Shown here piece by piece: positions 48,833 through 56,542 of a DNA stretch of 64,000 nucleotides. Under the pieces are notes generated by a model. The model made no database searches. It saw only the letters and a program-made list of their open reading frames with translations, and was not told the DNA's origin. Where the stretch lies: NCBI RefSeq assembly GCF_013408655.1, contig NZ_JACCBP010000001.1, forward strand, positions 3,534,001 to 3,598,000, written 5' to 3'. Numbering within the stretch: the first letter of the stretch is position 1; the number at the start of each line of letters is the position of its first letter. This stretch comes from Pigmentiphaga litoralis. GTDB taxonomy: Bacteria > Pseudomonadota > Gammaproteobacteria > Burkholderiales > Burkholderiaceae_B. The position numbers and the translations under genes are program-made.

Positions 48833-50761
48833 TTACGTGCGACGCAGCTTGCGCCAGAGCGTCGTGCGGCTGATGCCCAGGCGCCTGGCCGCTTCGTCAT
48901 GATTGCCCGCGCAGGCCCGCAACATCGCCTGCGCCATCTCGGTATCGAGCTTCCGGCGGGCGCCCGGCAGGGTCTGCCCTGGCGGCGAACCGGCACCCGC
49001 CATCTGCCCCATGCCGATCAGCATGGCCTTGATCTCGCCGCGTGTCGGCGCGCGGTCCCCTGACAGGCAGGCCATGGCCAGGCGCTCGGCCACGTTCTCC
49101 AGCTCGCGCACATTGCCGGGCCACGGGTAGTTCTTCATGGCCGGCAAGGCCAGCCGCAGCACGTCCTGGGTCAGGTCCGAACGATCGGCGCGGCCCAGTG
49201 CGTTGGCGATCAGCCGGGTGCCCAGCGTGTGGATGTCGGCCGGACGTTCGCGCAGCGGGGGCACCGGCACGTGCAGGATGTTGAGCCGGTAGAACAGGTC
49301 TTCCCGAAAGCTTTCGTTGGCCACCATCGTGATCAGGTCCCGGTGCGTCGCGGCAACGATACGGACATCCACCGCGACCGCATCCACGCCCCCGACCCGC
49401 GTGATTTCCTTTTCCTGCAGTGCGCGCAGCAGGCGCGTCTGCAGCGCCAGCGGCATCTCACCGATCTCATCGAGAAACAGGGTGCCCTGGTTGGCGGCTT
49501 CGAACAGCCCGATCTTGCCGTGACGGCTCGCGCCCGTGAACGCGCCTTCTTCGTAGCCGAACAGTTCGCTTTCCAGCAGGCTTTCGGAAAACGCGCCGCA
49601 GTTCATGGCAATGAAGGGATGGCTGCGGCGCCGGCTGGCGTTGTGAATGCCCTGCGCCAGCAACTCTTTGCCGGTGCCGCTTTCGCCGCTGATCAACACC
49701 GCCGCGTCGCTGTGCGCGGCAAAGACCGCGCATTGCTTGACGACGTCGTGCATGGCGGGCGACTCGGCCACGACGTCATCCAGCCGGTAGCGTGCGGCGC
49801 GTGACTTGCGATGGCTGTGCGCGCGCAGCTTGCTAGCGGCGCGTTCCAGCGTGCTCGATCCGTGCAGGGTAAAGATCGCGCCGGTCTGCACGCCTTCGTC
49901 GAACAGCGGCACCCGGTCCACGACCAGCGACCGTCCGGCCATGTCTTCGACCGAGCCGATCTCGCTGGTGCCACGCGTCAGCACCTGGCCCAGCTTCAGT
50001 TCCGGCAACACGGTGTGCACGGCCTGTCCTTGCGTGCCCGAGACCCGCGCACCCGTCAGTTTTTCGACCGCAGGATTCACGGTCAGGATGCGGCCCGACA
50101 TATCGACGGCAACCACGCCGTCGTTCAGATGCTGCAGCACCGAATCGAGCCGCGCCCGCCGCGAACGTTCGGCCACCCTGGCGCTGGCCAGTGCAATGGC
50201 GTCGTCGAACGCGGCGCGGACCGAGTCCGGCGAATACACCAGCACCCCTTCCAGCCCGGCGGCGTAGGCCAGGTTGACGATCAGCCCCGGGCCTACCACC
50301 GCCTTGATGCCCAGACGGGTCAGCTCGGCCAGGCACAGCCGCGCGTCGTCGGCGGTCTCGTACGACCGCAGCACCAGGGGCAGATCGAACAGGCCGGCAA
50401 AACGTGTCAGCTCAGCCGAGATGCGCAGGTGCATGACCACCGCAATACGATCGGAGATCGATCGCGCCTTGCTCAAGGCCGCCATCAGGTCGAAGCCGCC
50501 CACCTTGACCAGCGCCACCGGCTGGGCCAGGTGCCGGCGCAGATACGCGCCATGCGCACCCGCCGCGACGACGACATCGCAGGGCCCGTGCGCGGTGCCG
50601 CGAGCAATCGCCGACACCGCGTCGTCATACCCCTTGTCCACGACGTCGATGCGCGCGCGGTCCGCGAATTCCGATGACACCGTGTGGAAGATATCGGTCA
50701 GCCGGTGCGCGCTGGCCGCCATGATGACCGGGCGCTGCGCGTCGGAAAAGGGCTGGGCCAT
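48833..50761 (-). CDS. PrpR-like sigma-54 dependent activator
   Basis: 642 residues. The N-terminal PrpR sensor domain (about 10-190) is followed by a PAS-like region ([20 protein letters not shown], about 210-310). The AAA+ domain has Walker [12 protein letters not shown], the sigma-54 contact loop GAFTGA, Walker B LFLDEIGE and [12 protein letters not shown] Fis-type HTH ends the protein ([20 protein letters not shown]). AGGA precedes ATG 50761. The sensor domain in this family binds a small acid such as 2-methylcitrate. It faces an operon with a consensus sigma-54 promoter, so it is almost certainly the activator of Bug-prpF. Confidence 0.93.
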
Positions 50762-50773
50762 GTCGGTTCCTGA

Positions 50774-50802
50774 TGTTTCATGTACGTTCCAATATTGAAA
50801 CA
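50774..50802. promoter_or_regulatory. Upstream activator site candidate TGTTTCA-N15-TGAAACA
   Basis: Perfect 7+7 inverted repeat 13 bases upstream of the PrpR-like start and about 115 bases before the expected sigma-54 transcript start. This is the usual distance for an enhancer site, and it would also permit self-control. Confidence 0.6.
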
Positions 50803-50875
50803 CAGGGCATGGCGTCCGGTGGCCGCGCTGGCAGCCGCACCCGGCAACGGCGCCACGGCAGGGCTCCACGCCTCA

Positions 50876-50891
50876 TGGCACGGCCATTGCA
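50876..50891 (+). promoter_or_regulatory. Sigma-54 promoter (-24/-12) for the Bug-prpF operon
   Basis: TGGCACGGCCATTGCA matches TGGCACG-N4-TTGCW at every conserved base and exact spacing. Transcription should begin near 50902, about 75 bases before the Bug ATG at 50976. Confidence 0.88.
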
Positions 50892-50975
50892 TGCCGCGTG
50901 CGATGGCCACCGGCTCTCATAGAGCTGACCTCTTGCAGACCTGACACAGGCGCCGATTGACTGGAGATCGCAACA

Positions 50976-51974
50976 ATGACTTTTCACACTGGCCGCAGGC
51001 ACGTCCTGGGTTTGGGCATGGCGCTCGGTTTGTTCCTGGGACTGACGGCGCTGGCCTGGCACCACCCCGCGACCGCGCAAGCCTATCCCGCCAAGCCCAT
51101 CAAGCTGATCGTGCCGTTCGCGCCCGGCGGCGGCAATGATGCGATTGCCCGGCTGCTTGGACGGCAGCTGTCGGAATCGCTTGGCCAACCGGTTGTGATC
51201 GACAACCGTGCGGGGGCCGGTGGACGGCTGGGGGTCGAACAAGGTATCCGCGCGGAACCCGACGGCTATACGCTGACGCTGATCTCTAACAGTTATGCCG
51301 CCAACCCCAGCCTTTACCCGATCAAGTTCGATCCGCTCAAGGACATTACCCCGGTTGGCATGATTGCCCGTGCGCCCCTGCTGATTGCAGTGAATCCCAA
51401 GCTGCCGGCCCGCACCGTGCCTGAACTGATTGCGCTGGCCAAAACCAAATCCGGAGGGCTGACCTTTGCGTCGTCCGGACAGGGCGGCATCTCGCACCTG
51501 GCGACCGAACTCTTCCTGAAGAGCGCCGGCATCGACATGACCCACGTGCCCTACAAGGGAACGTCGCCCGCATTGACCGACACGGTGGCCGGCCTGACCG
51601 ATGTGTTCTTCAGCACGCCCGGCGCGGCGTCGCCTTACATGAAGAACCAGCGATTGAACGTGCTGGCCGTGACGACACCCAAACGCAGCGCGGCCGAACC
51701 GCAGATTCCAACGGTCATGGAGTCCGGCCTGCCCGACTACGACGTGACGGTGTGGTACGGCATCATCGCGCCCAAAGGCCTGGACCCGGCGATTCAAAAG
51801 CAGTTGAACCAGTCCATCAATACGGCGCTGGGCAGCAAGGAAGTCCAGGACCACTTGAAGACGACCGGCGAAGAGACCTCGCCCGGCACGCCTGCTGCCT
51901 TCATGGACCAGATCAATAAAGAAGTCGCCCTGTGGCGGCGTGTCGTGGCCGACGCGCGCATCCAGGTGGACTGA
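50976..51974 (+). CDS. Bug-family solute receptor under sigma-54 control
   Basis: 332 residues. The signal peptide (residues 1-36, ending ATAQA) precedes YPAKPIKLIVPFAPGGGND; VVIDNRAGAGGRLG, AEPDGYTLTL, FASSGQGGISHLATE and HVPYKGTSPALTD follow. TGGAGA at 50962-50967 is a clear ribosome site. Followed after 102 bases by the prpF-like gene. Ligand likely a tricarboxylate or oxo-dicarboxylate recognised also by the PrpR-like sensor. Confidence 0.94.
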   Translation: MTFHTGRRHVLGLGMALGLFLGLTALAWHHPATAQAYPAKPIKLIVPFAPGGGNDAIARLLGRQLSESLGQPVVIDNRAGAGGRLGVEQGIRAEPDGYTLTLISNSYAANPSLYPIKFDPLKDITPVGMIARAPLLIAVNPKLPARTVPELIALAKTKSGGLTFASSGQGGISHLATELFLKSAGIDMTHVPYKGTSPALTDTVAGLTDVFFSTPGAASPYMKNQRLNVLAVTTPKRSAAEPQIPTVMESGLPDYDVTVWYGIIAPKGLDPAIQKQLNQSINTALGSKEVQDHLKTTGEETSPGTPAAFMDQINKEVALWRRVVADARIQVD

Positions 51975-52076
51975 CCGCGCCCTGGCGCAGCGCCACCCGG
52001 CCCGTGCGCCTTCCTTGTCCCCCGGACGACTGATTTCCACGAAACACCCGGCGGCTTTCCCGCCGAAGGACACACG

Positions 52077-53168
52077 ATGCAAACCAAGATTCCCTGCGTG
52101 ATGATGCGCGGCGGCACTTCCAGCGGTCCCTTCTTCCTTGCCAGGGACCTGCCCGACGACATTGCCTTGCGCGACGAGATCCTGATTGCCGCAATGGGTT
52201 CGCCGCACGAATACCAGGTCGACGGTATCGGCGGCGCCACGCCGTTCACCAGCAAGGTCGCGATCATCAGCCGGTCCACCCGGCCTGGCATCGATGTCGA
52301 CTATCTGTTTGCGCAGGTGCTGGTCAACGAACGCTATGTCGACACCAAACCCAACTGCGGCAACATGCTCGGCGCGGTGGGCCCGTTTGCCATCGAGCAG
52401 GGCCTCGTGCCTGCACAAGCGGGCGAGACCACGGTCCGCATCTTCAATGTGAACACCCGGGCCGAGGTCGATGCCATCGTCGAAACGCCGAACGGCGTCG
52501 TCACCTACGCCGGCACGACCGCGATCGATGGCGTGCCGGGAACAGCCGCACCGGTTCGCCTGAACTTTCGCAGCGCCATCGGTTCCGTCACCGGCAAGCT
52601 GCTGCCGACGGGCCGCCCGATCGATGTGATCGACGGCGTGGAAGTCAGCTGCGTGGACGTCGCCATGCCCATGGTGCTGATCCCGGCCGAACAGGTGGGC
52701 AAAACTGGTCACGAAGGCGCCAACGAACTGGATGCCGACGTGGCGCTGCTGGCCCGCATGGAAGCGATCCGTCGCCAGGCGGGTGAACTGATGGGGTTGG
52801 GCGACGTGTCGAAGTCGGTGGTGCCCAAGATCGGGCTGATGGCGCGGCCTGCCAAGGGGGGCACCATTTCGTCCCGCTACTTCGTGCCCTACGCCTGCCA
52901 CAAGGCGCATGCGGTCACGGGTGCCGTCTGCGTGGCGGCCGCGTGCGCCACGCCCGGAACGATTGCGCAGCGCCTGTCCGGATTGCCGGATACGTCGCCG
53001 CAAGGCGTGGTCGAGATCGAACATCCGTCGGGCAGCATTGCCATCGACCTGAATGTCGAGTTGGGCGGCGATCACCCCGTCATCCATCGGGCGGCGCTGA
53101 TCCGCACCGCGCGCCGGCTGTTCGAAGGCAATGTCCTGATTCCCGAACATGTGATGGCTGAGGCCTGA
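52077..53168 (+). CDS. PrpF-family isomerase (4-oxalomesaconate tautomerase/aconitate isomerase-like)
   Basis: 363 residues, start MQTKIPCVMMRGGTSSGPFF, the canonical PrpF opening. The active-site Cys near TKPNCGNMLGAVGPFA and the block DVAMPMVLIPA with HGANELD-like sequence match the diaminopimelate-epimerase fold family. PrpF isomerises methylaconitate or aconitate; GalD acts on oxalomesaconate in gallate breakdown. Which applies here is open. Partners acnD, prpB or prpC are not adjacent, so the operon is not a normal methylcitrate operon. Confidence 0.92.
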   Translation: MQTKIPCVMMRGGTSSGPFFLARDLPDDIALRDEILIAAMGSPHEYQVDGIGGATPFTSKVAIISRSTRPGIDVDYLFAQVLVNERYVDTKPNCGNMLGAVGPFAIEQGLVPAQAGETTVRIFNVNTRAEVDAIVETPNGVVTYAGTTAIDGVPGTAAPVRLNFRSAIGSVTGKLLPTGRPIDVIDGVEVSCVDVAMPMVLIPAEQVGKTGHEGANELDADVALLARMEAIRRQAGELMGLGDVSKSVVPKIGLMARPAKGGTISSRYFVPYACHKAHAVTGAVCVAAACATPGTIAQRLSGLPDTSPQGVVEIEHPSGSIAIDLNVELGGDHPVIHRAALIRTARRLFEGNVLIPEHVMAEA

Positions 53169-53185
53169 CACAAGGCATGGCCGCG

Positions 53186-53210
53186 GCGGCGGCGTGTTGA
53201 ACGCCGCCGC
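53186..53210 (+). terminator. GC-rich hairpin after prpF
   Basis: A 10-bp stem GCGGCGGCGT (53186-53195) with ACGCCGCCGC (53201-53210), loop GTTGA, followed by GGAAAAGCTT. Without a T-run it may be a weak or Rho-assisted stop between the two operons. Confidence 0.45.
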
Positions 53211-53240
53211 GGAAAAGCTTGAATTCCGCCTCGACTATTT

Positions 53241-53268
53241 TTGGTATGTTGGTATACCATCATACCAA
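53241..53268. promoter_or_regulatory. 28-bp near-perfect palindrome, probable GntR (FCD) operator
   Basis: TTGGTATG-TT-GGTATACC-AT-CATACCAA has one mismatched pair in 28 bases and holds the GGTATACC core typical of FadR/FCD-type GntR sites, with two extra half-sites outside. A -35-like TTGAAT (53219-53224) puts the -10 inside the palindrome, so binding would block transcription of the Bug-DUF1185-hydrolase-GntR operon. Confidence 0.75.
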
Positions 53269-53369
53269 CCGATCACCTTGACTCCGATGACGCACGCGCA
53301 GAGACCGCGTTCGCCCTAGGTCCGCCGGCCCCGCTGGCGCTTCATGACACTCCCCTACAGAAGGACACC

Positions 53370-55016: not shown

Positions 55017-55872
55017 GCGCCTTCCTGTCACGGGCGCCCTGCCGCAGACTGCCTGGCGCCGCACCGGTCACGGCGAACCCGTGATCCTGATCCACGGCGT
55101 GGGCATGGCGCAGTCGGTGTGGCAGCCGCAGGTCGATGCCCTGTCTCGCGATCACGACGTCATCGTCTACGACATGCTGGGCCACGGCGACAGCACCTTG
55201 CCAGCCGAAGGGGCGACGCTGGCTGACTATGCCGCGCAACTGGCGGACCTGATGGACCATCTGGGCATCAAGGCCGCGAACATCGTGGGGCATTCGATGG
55301 GCGCATTGATCGCGCTGGAATTTGCGTTGACGCAGCCCAAGCGCACCTTGCGGGTGGCGGCATTGAACGCGGTGTTCGAGCGCACGCCCGAGCAACGCGC
55401 GGCGGTGCAAGCGCGTGCCGAGGCCCTGAAACAAAGCGGCTTTGCGGCCACCATCGGCCCGACCATCGACCGGTGGTTCGGCACGCCGGTGCCTGCGCGC
55501 TTGCGTGATGCCGCCGACCTGGTAGCGGGCCTGCTGACCCGCGTCAGCCCCACGGGCTACGCGCGCACCTACCGCCTGTTCGCCAGCAGCGACGCCGTGC
55601 ACGCCAGCCGCTTGCCCACGCTGGCCATGCCGGCGCTGTTCCTGACCGGCGAATTCGATGCCAATTCCAGCCCGGCCATGTCACGCGCGATGGGCGACCT
55701 CGCGCCCAATGCGGTGGTCAAGATCCTGCCGGATGCGCGCCACATGATGAACCTGACCCATCCGGACGAAGTGAACGCGTCGCTCCGGACCTTCCTGGCC
55801 ATGCCGCGAGACGTGGAATACTTCGATATCGAATCGAAGAATCAGGAAGTCCACCACGATGTCAGTCCCTAA
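55009..55872 (+). CDS. Alpha/beta hydrolase
   Basis: 287 residues. The oxyanion loop LIHGVGM is near residue 28, the nucleophile elbow GHSMGALIALEFA has Ser about 96, FLTGEFDANSSP supplies the acid, and DARHMMNLTHPDEV supplies His. ATG 55009 overlaps the DUF1185 stop; the frame start at 54898 is inside that gene. The C-terminal 15 residues are polar and overlap the GntR gene by 14 bases. Likely an ester, lactone or C-C hydrolase (3-oxoadipate enol-lactonase type). Confidence 0.9.
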   Translation: MPERLPVTGALPQTAWRRTGHGEPVILIHGVGMAQSVWQPQVDALSRDHDVIVYDMLGHGDSTLPAEGATLADYAAQLADLMDHLGIKAANIVGHSMGALIALEFALTQPKRTLRVAALNAVFERTPEQRAAVQARAEALKQSGFAATIGPTIDRWFGTPVPARLRDAADLVAGLLTRVSPTGYARTYRLFASSDAVHASRLPTLAMPALFLTGEFDANSSPAMSRAMGDLAPNAVVKILPDARHMMNLTHPDEVNASLRTFLAMPRDVEYFDIESKNQEVHHDVSP

Positions 55873-56542
55873 CGCCGCTTCGCTCAAGGTCGACCGCAGC
55901 GCCAAGACCTTGCGTGAGCTGTCGCTGGAGAAAATGCGCGACGCCATTCTCAACGATCACTTCAAGCCCGGCGAACGTCTGGTCGAGCGCACGCTGTGCG
56001 CGCAACTGGACGTGAGCCGGTCGATCGTCCGGGAAGTGCTGCGGCACCTGGAGACCGAAGGCCTGGTCGAGTCGATTCCCTATCAGGGTCCGGTGGTTGC
56101 GCGGCTCGACAGCGGGCAGGCCGCGCAGATCTATGAGATCCGCGCCCTGCTTGAAGGCCATGCGGCGCGGCTGTGTGCCGAGAAGGCCAGCGACGACATG
56201 ATTGCAAGATTGAGCGAGCTCAATGACCGCATCCATGCCGCGTTCGGCCGCAACGACTTTGCCGAAGTCATGGCGCGCACCGCCGACTTCTACGAAGCCA
56301 TGTTCGCCGGCAGCGGCATGACGGTGGCCTGGGGCGTGGTGCAGTCGCTGAACGCCCGCATCAACCGCCTGCGTGCCGTGACCATCTCGTCCACCGGCCG
56401 GCGGGCCGACGCCGCGGCCGAAATGGCCAGGCTGGTCAAGGCCCTGAAAGACCGCGATCCGGACGCCGCGCAAGACGCTTCGCAGGCCCACGTGCGCCAT
56501 GTGGCGGCCATTGCCGCCAAACGGCTGGCCGAGTTGGGTTAA
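55859..56542 (+). CDS. GntR-family regulator, FCD (FadR) subgroup
   Basis: 227 residues. The N-terminal winged HTH (LRELSLEKMRDAILNDHFKPGERLVE, then LDVSRSIVREVLRHLETEGLVE) is followed by an all-helical FCD effector domain (IRALLEGHAARLCAEKASD). The conserved Asp/His metal ligand positions are only partly obvious (DFYEAMFAGSG, HVRHVAAI). It lies within the operon it probably represses through the palindrome at 53241-53268. Confidence 0.93.
   Translation: MSVPNAASLKVDRSAKTLRELSLEKMRDAILNDHFKPGERLVERTLCAQLDVSRSIVREVLRHLETEGLVESIPYQGPVVARLDSGQAAQIYEIRALLEGHAARLCAEKASDDMIARLSELNDRIHAAFGRNDFAEVMARTADFYEAMFAGSGMTVAWGVVQSLNARINRLRAVTISSTGRRADAAAEMARLVKALKDRDPDAAQDASQAHVRHVAAIAAKRLAELG

Follow-up and report, generated by a model that had tools for sequence, protein, structure and literature searches.

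A stretch of 64 kb from the genome of Pigmentiphaga litoralis (C1:3534001-3598000 of 6.17 Mb), referred to here as the window, carries a gene for a PrpR-type sigma-54 activator that is divergent from the genes for a Bug/TctC periplasmic receptor, Bug1, and a PrpF-family isomerase, PrpF1. This locus is probably a switch, built from a PrpR paralogue and sigma-54, for the uptake and isomerization of a tricarboxylate, likely trans-aconitate. In the proposed scheme, the PrpR paralogue would sense a tricarboxylate, likely trans-aconitate, bind an 18-bp operator (50785-50802), and activate a sigma-54 promoter (50876-50891) that would drive the Bug1 and PrpF1 genes. Trans-aconitate bound by Bug1 would be passed to a membrane partner whose gene would lie outside the locus, and PrpF1 would convert it to cis-aconitate, which would feed aconitase. 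The wiring of the regulator to Bug and PrpF is well supported by conservation; trans-aconitate as the substrate is a reasoned prediction.

The regulator gene (48833-50761, minus strand) encodes 642 amino acids with PrpR_N, PAS, AAA+, and Fis-type helix-turn-helix domains by Pfam. The protein passes TIGR02329, the NCBI PrpR model, with 583 bits (cut-off, 499), and its GAFTGA motif begins at residue 406, so the complete PrpR-type activator named in a preliminary description of this DNA is indeed there. It shares its PrpR_N domain, GAFTGA-bearing AAA+ domain, Fis helix-turn-helix, and divergent sigma-54 promoter with PrpR of the 2-methylcitrate cycle of Salmonella and Escherichia coli. It differs from that protein in belonging to a clade of its own, in driving Bug and PrpF genes rather than the prpB and prpC genes from which a classical PrpR is divergent, and in coexisting with a second PrpR beside prpBCD. 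Bug1 (50976-51974, plus strand; PF03401, 208 bits) has the TctC/Bug domain of a tripartite tricarboxylate transporter receptor. PrpF1 (52077-53168, plus strand) matches PF04303 with 396 bits and NF033377 with 514 bits (cut-off, 440). Both genes lie where the preliminary description had placed them.

How widespread is this arrangement? The regulator was searched for in 200 genomes of the family, with at most six candidates scored per genome, so that paralogues may be missed, and the partner genes of each locus were determined by tblastn. The regulator's own clade, clade B, was found in 11 of the 200 genomes (this one plus 10 others at 60 to 67% identity). Its sister group, clade C, comprises six loci with regulators at 53 to 56% identity, and further regulators at 58 to 60% identity carry the name Polaromonas in public databases. 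A Bug1 orthologue is present in all 11 clade B loci, at 58 to 73% identity in the 10 others, and the best other Bug in the available sequence reaches 47%. PrpF1 is found in eight of the 11, namely, the eight members of the genus including P. litoralis, at 80 to 81% identity in the relatives. Within the genus, the clade B regulator and PrpF1 (at least 80% identity) occur together in eight of 11 genomes and are both missing from the other three; across the family, the same threshold returns PrpF1 from eight of the 200 genomes, its own included, every one with the regulator. The prpR-Bug-prpF synteny that the preliminary description proposed searching for thus holds for Bug throughout, but three loci have a ModA-like protein in place of PrpF1, one of them together with another PrpF.

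The promoter element, TGGCACGGCCATTGCA (50876-50891, plus strand), lies 84 nt 5′ of the Bug1 start and is an exact TGGCACG-N4-TTGCA, the full-consensus -24/-12 match originally claimed. The genome has 11 exact copies of TGGCACGNNNNTTGCW and three of the reversed control. A single element taken alone is therefore only modestly improbable, and the weight rests on its place and its conservation. TGGCA and TTGC are present in all 17 aligned divergent regions of clades B and C (G, C, and L numbers below are our handles for genomes, contigs, and loci), and the best site in each of these 17 loci has zero or one mismatch to TGGCAYRNNNNTTGCW. A divergent sigma-54 element is found at 11 of 11 clade B loci; with the Bug orthologues and a conserved operator, this supports the sigma-54/PrpR-like wiring that had been suggested. 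The Bug1-PrpF1 promoter is predicted to require RpoN. Two rpoN genes score above the family cut-off, C1:3078676-3080112 and C3:524105-525529 (L214, L215). The second of these is preceded, at a distance of about 90 bp, by an exact sigma-54 element (C3:525619-525634), suggesting that it may itself be under sigma-54 control.

Between the promoter element and the regulator gene, the TGTTTCA-N15-TGAAACA palindrome of the preliminary description is present exactly (50774-50802), but the conserved, likely operator core is narrower, an 18-bp near-palindrome, CGTTCCAATATTGAAACA (50785-50802), just upstream of the regulator start. In relatives, the right half of the outer palindrome is kept better than the left, and the full 29 bp was rejected as the entire operator because genus relatives retain the inner 18-mer. 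At up to three mismatches, TGTTTCAATATTGAAACA is found at one place in the genome of P. litoralis (control, 0), which leaves no second target of the regulator there at this threshold. At up to two mismatches, it is found at a single place in each of seven of the 11 genus genomes, always beside a clade B regulator, and is not found in the remaining four: G166, which has the regulator and a diverged site, and G096, G116, and G135, which are without a clade B regulator. The centre of the best 16- to 19-bp core lies 92 to 96 bp from the -12 element in 10 of 11 clade B loci. The cores of L044, L045, and L047 are 16 or 19 bp and diverged, with three half-site mismatches in L047; L046 is without a core of this size and has a 26-bp site at 101 bp instead. 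The candidate operator is kept in place across clade B, and in sequence in most of it. Because the site directly precedes the regulator's start codon, it is predicted to control the regulator's own gene as well. The same site bears on where that gene begins. ATG 50761 is the more likely start, since the regulator's open frames in five of seven aligned clade B relatives begin within a few residues of it and the operator sits between the two candidate starts; the other, GTG 50869, was rejected, as it would place the operator inside the gene.

Could the regulator simply be the propionate regulator of this bacterium? The genome encodes one other PrpR_N protein, divergent from prpB, prpC, and prpD (C1, about 1.14 to 1.15 Mb). 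That locus has a sigma-54 element of its own, TTGGCACACCCTTTGCA, and no TGTTTCA/TGAAACA pair within three mismatches. The methylcitrate genes reported missing are thus absent from the locus but present elsewhere in the genome. What would have spoken against the switch, co-regulation of prpF solely with a prpBC-acnD operon far away, does not apply here: the methylcitrate operon of this genome consists of prpBCD, has its own PrpR, and lacks a matching operator. Because prpBCD has its own PrpR, the window regulator appears to be a paralogue with another job.

A regulator tree was built by a quick method, with SH-aLRT as the only support measure, from 87 sequences, 74 from the census described below and 13 (L072-L084) from a second genome scan with generic AAA+ words, which gave at least 80 loci; these 13 also entered the sigma-54-site listing. 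Single-branch support is 96 for clade B, 100 for C, 99 for D, and 100 for E, and 100 for B and C jointly. The prp-linked regulators (A) are not one branch, requiring three changes. The five clade labels need four changes on the tree, as few as possible, where shuffled labels need 33 on average: gene content tracks the regulator tree. Eight further scan loci that match most of the regulator (L117, L118, L120, L123, L127, L136, L139, and L141) were checked by tblastn; six are prp-linked, two are without a partner gene in the available DNA, and none is of the window type. Clades B and C may have arisen among prp-linked regulators, though the fork (94) is drawn open and comes with a long-branch warning, one of whose meeting pairs involves the window's group. 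This placement gives some footing to the view that the regulator is simply another PrpR, responding to 2-methylcitrate and bringing Bug-PrpF into the propionate regulon, as do its score above the TIGR02329 cut-off and the part that PrpF takes in the methylcitrate cycle of other bacteria (PMC5690661, in excerpt). We consider that view very unlikely, given that B plus C form a separate, fully supported branch and that the prpBCD operon, besides having its own PrpR and no matching operator, includes PrpD, which makes a PrpF needless there.

A census took in 77 PrpR-type loci, comprising 75 of 80 listed regulators with at least 400 bits plus two weaker ones; the regulators omitted (in G114, G094, G135, G156, and G177) are close to contig starts. 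A divergent-strand sigma-54 element with at most one mismatch is found at 75 of the 77, at 56 of them with none, compared with one of 77 on the opposite strand of that stretch and 54 of 1,540 random 650-bp segments drawn from these loci, some of them overlapping the real site. The divergent genes are prpB and prpC at 32 loci and prpB only at five; clade B accounts for 11 loci, clade C for six, and clade D, with a CaiB-type CoA transferase, for 17 (15 with Bug). Clade E, in which PrpB-like, AcnD-like, and Bug proteins occur together, has two, and four are classed as other (L068, L070, L210, and L211; L068, a weak regulator match, is prp-linked in one listing). Units without prpBC therefore make up 34 of 77 loci (11 B, 6 C, and 17 D), 32 of them with Bug, and two more are mixed. 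Members of clades B and C bear the public name “propionate catabolism operon regulatory protein PrpR,” which misleads because those 34 loci drive units without prpBC.

To briefly describe the two other groups without prpBC, the clade C regulators (L048-L053) drive genes for Bug, LeuC-like, LeuD-like, and (methyl)isocitrate-lyase-like proteins, a compact possible pathway; this set is reminiscent of an enzyme pair of nicotinate fermentation, dimethylmaleate hydratase and dimethylmalate lyase. Clade D (L065, L066, L067, L071, L193, L194, L197, L198, L199, L201, L202, and L204-L209) shows, at all 17 loci, a sigma-54 element that departs from the consensus at one position or none, and the one neighbour tested (L071) is HMGL-like; hydroxymethylglutarate or citramalate is possibly what these loci serve to use.

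What, then, does the clade B switch respond to? The roles proposed for Bug1 and PrpF1 in trans-aconitate use are drawn from the partners found in relatives. In L044, L045, and L047, Bug1 is followed by a 250-residue SBP_bac_11 protein of the ModA fold, and the close type of this protein (at least 87% identity) occurs in three of the 200 family genomes, exactly those of the three clade B loci without PrpF1. Judged by eye, it has no signal peptide and is therefore likely to be an enzyme rather than a periplasmic receptor; as a query against solved structures, it gave no match. Pseudomonas sp. WU-0701 reportedly has a 262-residue ModA-like protein as its aconitate isomerase, and in these Achromobacter-type relatives the ModA-fold protein after Bug1 would act as the isomerase. 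PrpF1, for its part, is a PrpF-superfamily protein with both catalytic residues: K60 and C94 occupy the Lys and Cys places, in the motifs where Shewanella PrpF has K73 and C107; that Shewanella protein has aconitate isomerase activity according to the excerpted text of PMC5690661. Excerpts of PMC11495376 place TarA and TbrA, aconitate isomerases that serve in using or producing trans-aconitate, in the PrpF superfamily. Aconitate is the most economical reading because the same orthologous receptor and regulator are paired with two unrelated candidate aconitate isomerases. The next closest Bug to Bug1 (the one at 47%) is encoded in the same genome near an AcnA/AcnD-like aconitase and a PrpF above the methylaconitate cut-off (C4:32234-39588; L058), and we count this neighbourhood as suggesting aconitate too.

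Homologues of the ModA-like protein on plasmids offer a wider, mixed view. SBP_bac_11 homologues, all below 60% identity, occur in 78 plasmid records, and the neighbourhoods were examined in eight of 15 listed records (H1, H2, H3, H4, H8, H9, H12, and H15). In four of the eight (Cronobacter, Klebsiella, Paraburkholderia, and Sphingomonas), the gene adjoins a same-strand TcuC-type symporter (739, 744, 763, and 656 bits; TcuC tricarballylate subfamily cut-off, 445), with a LysR gene nearby in all four. In two (Comamonas and Cupriavidus), it adjoins Bug. The other two, Neorhizobium and Caballeronia, have neither importer adjoining, and in Caballeronia a glycolate-oxidase-like gene is near and an aconitase-family gene about 3 kb off. 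As evidence on the substrate, the plasmid neighbourhoods pull both ways, with TcuC pairs on one side and an oxalomesaconate neighbourhood, in Neorhizobium, on the other. As a side note on nomenclature, the SBP_bac_11 proteins that adjoin Bug or a TcuC-type importer (L044, L045, and L047; L216, L217, L223, and L224) are named molybdate/substrate binding proteins, a name that is likely wrong for some of them.

Several observations weigh against trans-aconitate. No TctA/TctB membrane partner is among the ten proteins annotated at 47.9 to 59.5 kb of the window. Neither Neorhizobium (L221), which has an aromatic-acid-like MFS (major facilitator superfamily) gene and galB and ligK (oxalomesaconate hydratase and aldolase) about 3 kb from the ModA-like gene, nor Caballeronia pairs that gene with TcuC or Bug. 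PrpF1 itself scores with the 4-oxalomesaconate tautomerase model and YbhH and not with the methylaconitate isomerase model (206 bits; cut-off, 441), and E. coli YbhD-YbhH has been linked to L-malate (PMC9068703, in excerpt). In seven genus relatives, the promoter is followed directly by a second PrpF, PrpF2, which is absent from the window and nearest to a 3-methylitaconate isomerase. At L047, a canonical PrpF (742 bits; cut-off, 441) accompanies the ModA-like protein. With PrpF2 in the relatives and two isomerase types in L047, another or a methylated acid is therefore possible.

The same switch might, for example, serve a methyl-branched acid of the 2-methylaconitate, methylitaconate, or dimethylmaleate type that feeds propionate/pyruvate metabolism. 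PrpF2 (one tested) falls below both equivalog cut-offs and is closest to the 3-methylitaconate isomerase 3g7k (291 bits), and clade C links the same regulator line to Bug and to LeuC-like, LeuD-like, and (methyl)isocitrate-lyase-like genes. The unit in the window, however, has neither PrpF2 nor a hydratase or lyase, and the ModA-like partner adjoins a TcuC symporter in half of the plasmid records examined, all of which makes a methyl-branched acid unlikely, if still worth keeping in mind.

Alternatively, PrpF1 could be a 4-oxalomesaconate tautomerase serving gallate or protocatechuate breakdown. GalD and LigU are enzymes of this tautomerase/isomerase kind, with which PrpF1 shares the NCBIfam model and the conserved Lys and Cys. 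PrpF1 passes the NF033377 equivalog cut-off, the solved 4-oxalomesaconate isomerases 6p3h, 6p3j, and 6p3k are among its best relatives after YbhH (6otv), and a distant ModA-like homologue is the one near galB and ligK in Neorhizobium. This role nevertheless seems quite unlikely for PrpF1. No gallate/protocatechuate ring-cleavage gene is among the ten proteins at 47.9 to 59.5 kb, the rest of the genome not having been searched for them; PrpF1 is paired with an uptake receptor, and it is difficult to see why an intermediate of a pathway would have a receptor outside the cell. The model also takes in E. coli YbhH, whose function is unsettled (PMC9068703, in excerpt), and a second member in the same genome (L056). 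That genome has five PrpF-family genes, of which two pass the methylaconitate cut-off, two (PrpF1 and L056) the oxalomesaconate cut-off, and one neither. Among the substrates that the preliminary description had offered as examples, aconitate is best supported by context, with weaker but some support for oxalomesaconate.

Taken as a trans-aconitate switch, the locus recalls several described systems. Bacillus velezensis tarR-tarA-tarB (PMC11495376, in excerpt) likewise combines a divergent activator, a PrpF-superfamily isomerase, and a dedicated importer part; TarR is LysR-type and TarB an MFS importer, whereas the window locus lacks that combination and has a sigma-54 activator and a Bug receptor, its activity being predicted. 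The locus may be regarded, as a reasoned prediction, as tar-type aconitate logic with other parts, a PrpR-type sigma-54 activator in control and a Bug receptor for uptake. E. coli ybhD-ybhH-ybhI-ybhJ includes the closest solved PrpF1 relative together with a divergent regulator and a putative tricarboxylate transporter, but with a LysR regulator, another transporter family, and the L-malate link (PMC9068703, in excerpt). The sets of TcuC plus ModA-like protein in Klebsiella, Cronobacter, Paraburkholderia, and Sphingomonas join an importer to a putative isomerase as in the three clade B loci without PrpF1, but with an MFS importer and a LysR regulator; no paper describing them was found, though no search was aimed at such sets.

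Nor did searches of the open PMC literature turn up a Bug-PrpF or trans-aconitate module reported to be under sigma-54 or PrpR-type control, and within their reach the original statement stands, that the arrangement cannot be matched to a described system. Related predictions could be contained in the 2012 study of propionate regulation by Suvorova et al. (cited in PMC4676750). In the excerpted text, a Clostridiales survey lists PrpR_N among activator domains without a Bug-PrpF function (PMC6615313), a Bug of unknown function lies beside an itaconate cluster without PrpR (PMC12290011), and the functions of Bordetella Bug receptors are described as mainly unassigned (PMC11452294).

More broadly, and with slightly less than even confidence, the PrpR proteins of Burkholderiales could be seen as sigma-54 sensors that, as a family, detect branched tri- and dicarboxylates, with several clades hard-wired to Bug and their own first enzymes. 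Clade B would then be the first sigma-54-controlled trans-aconitate system, one in which a single receptor and a single switch serve two unrelated isomerase folds, PrpF and ModA-like. If true, the PrpR family would offer ligands for Bug receptors, of which the P. litoralis genome encodes at least 150 (Bug/TctC genes), 150 of 320 initial candidates having been scored. The neighbours of a regulator clade would hint at a substrate class, and with an operator-like site found once per genome this gives a direct route to assigning Bug ligands. A sigma-54 trans-aconitate switch would also, if real, be a useful biosensor part.

Downstream of PrpF1, a GC-rich hairpin (53181-53212, plus strand; RNA fold, -31.5 kcal/mol; z, -2.1) is a possible end of the transcription unit; it is without a T run, and five of 200 shuffles fold equally well. 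A second receptor gene, Bug2 (53370), was ruled out as a member of the Bug1-PrpF1 unit by a 200-bp gap, the hairpin, a separate palindrome, and a downstream GntR gene. That palindrome, TGGTATACCA (53241-53269), lies 5′ of Bug2, is flanked by TTGGTAT/ATACCAA repeats, and is possibly the operator of the GntR/FCD regulator encoded at 55859-56542.

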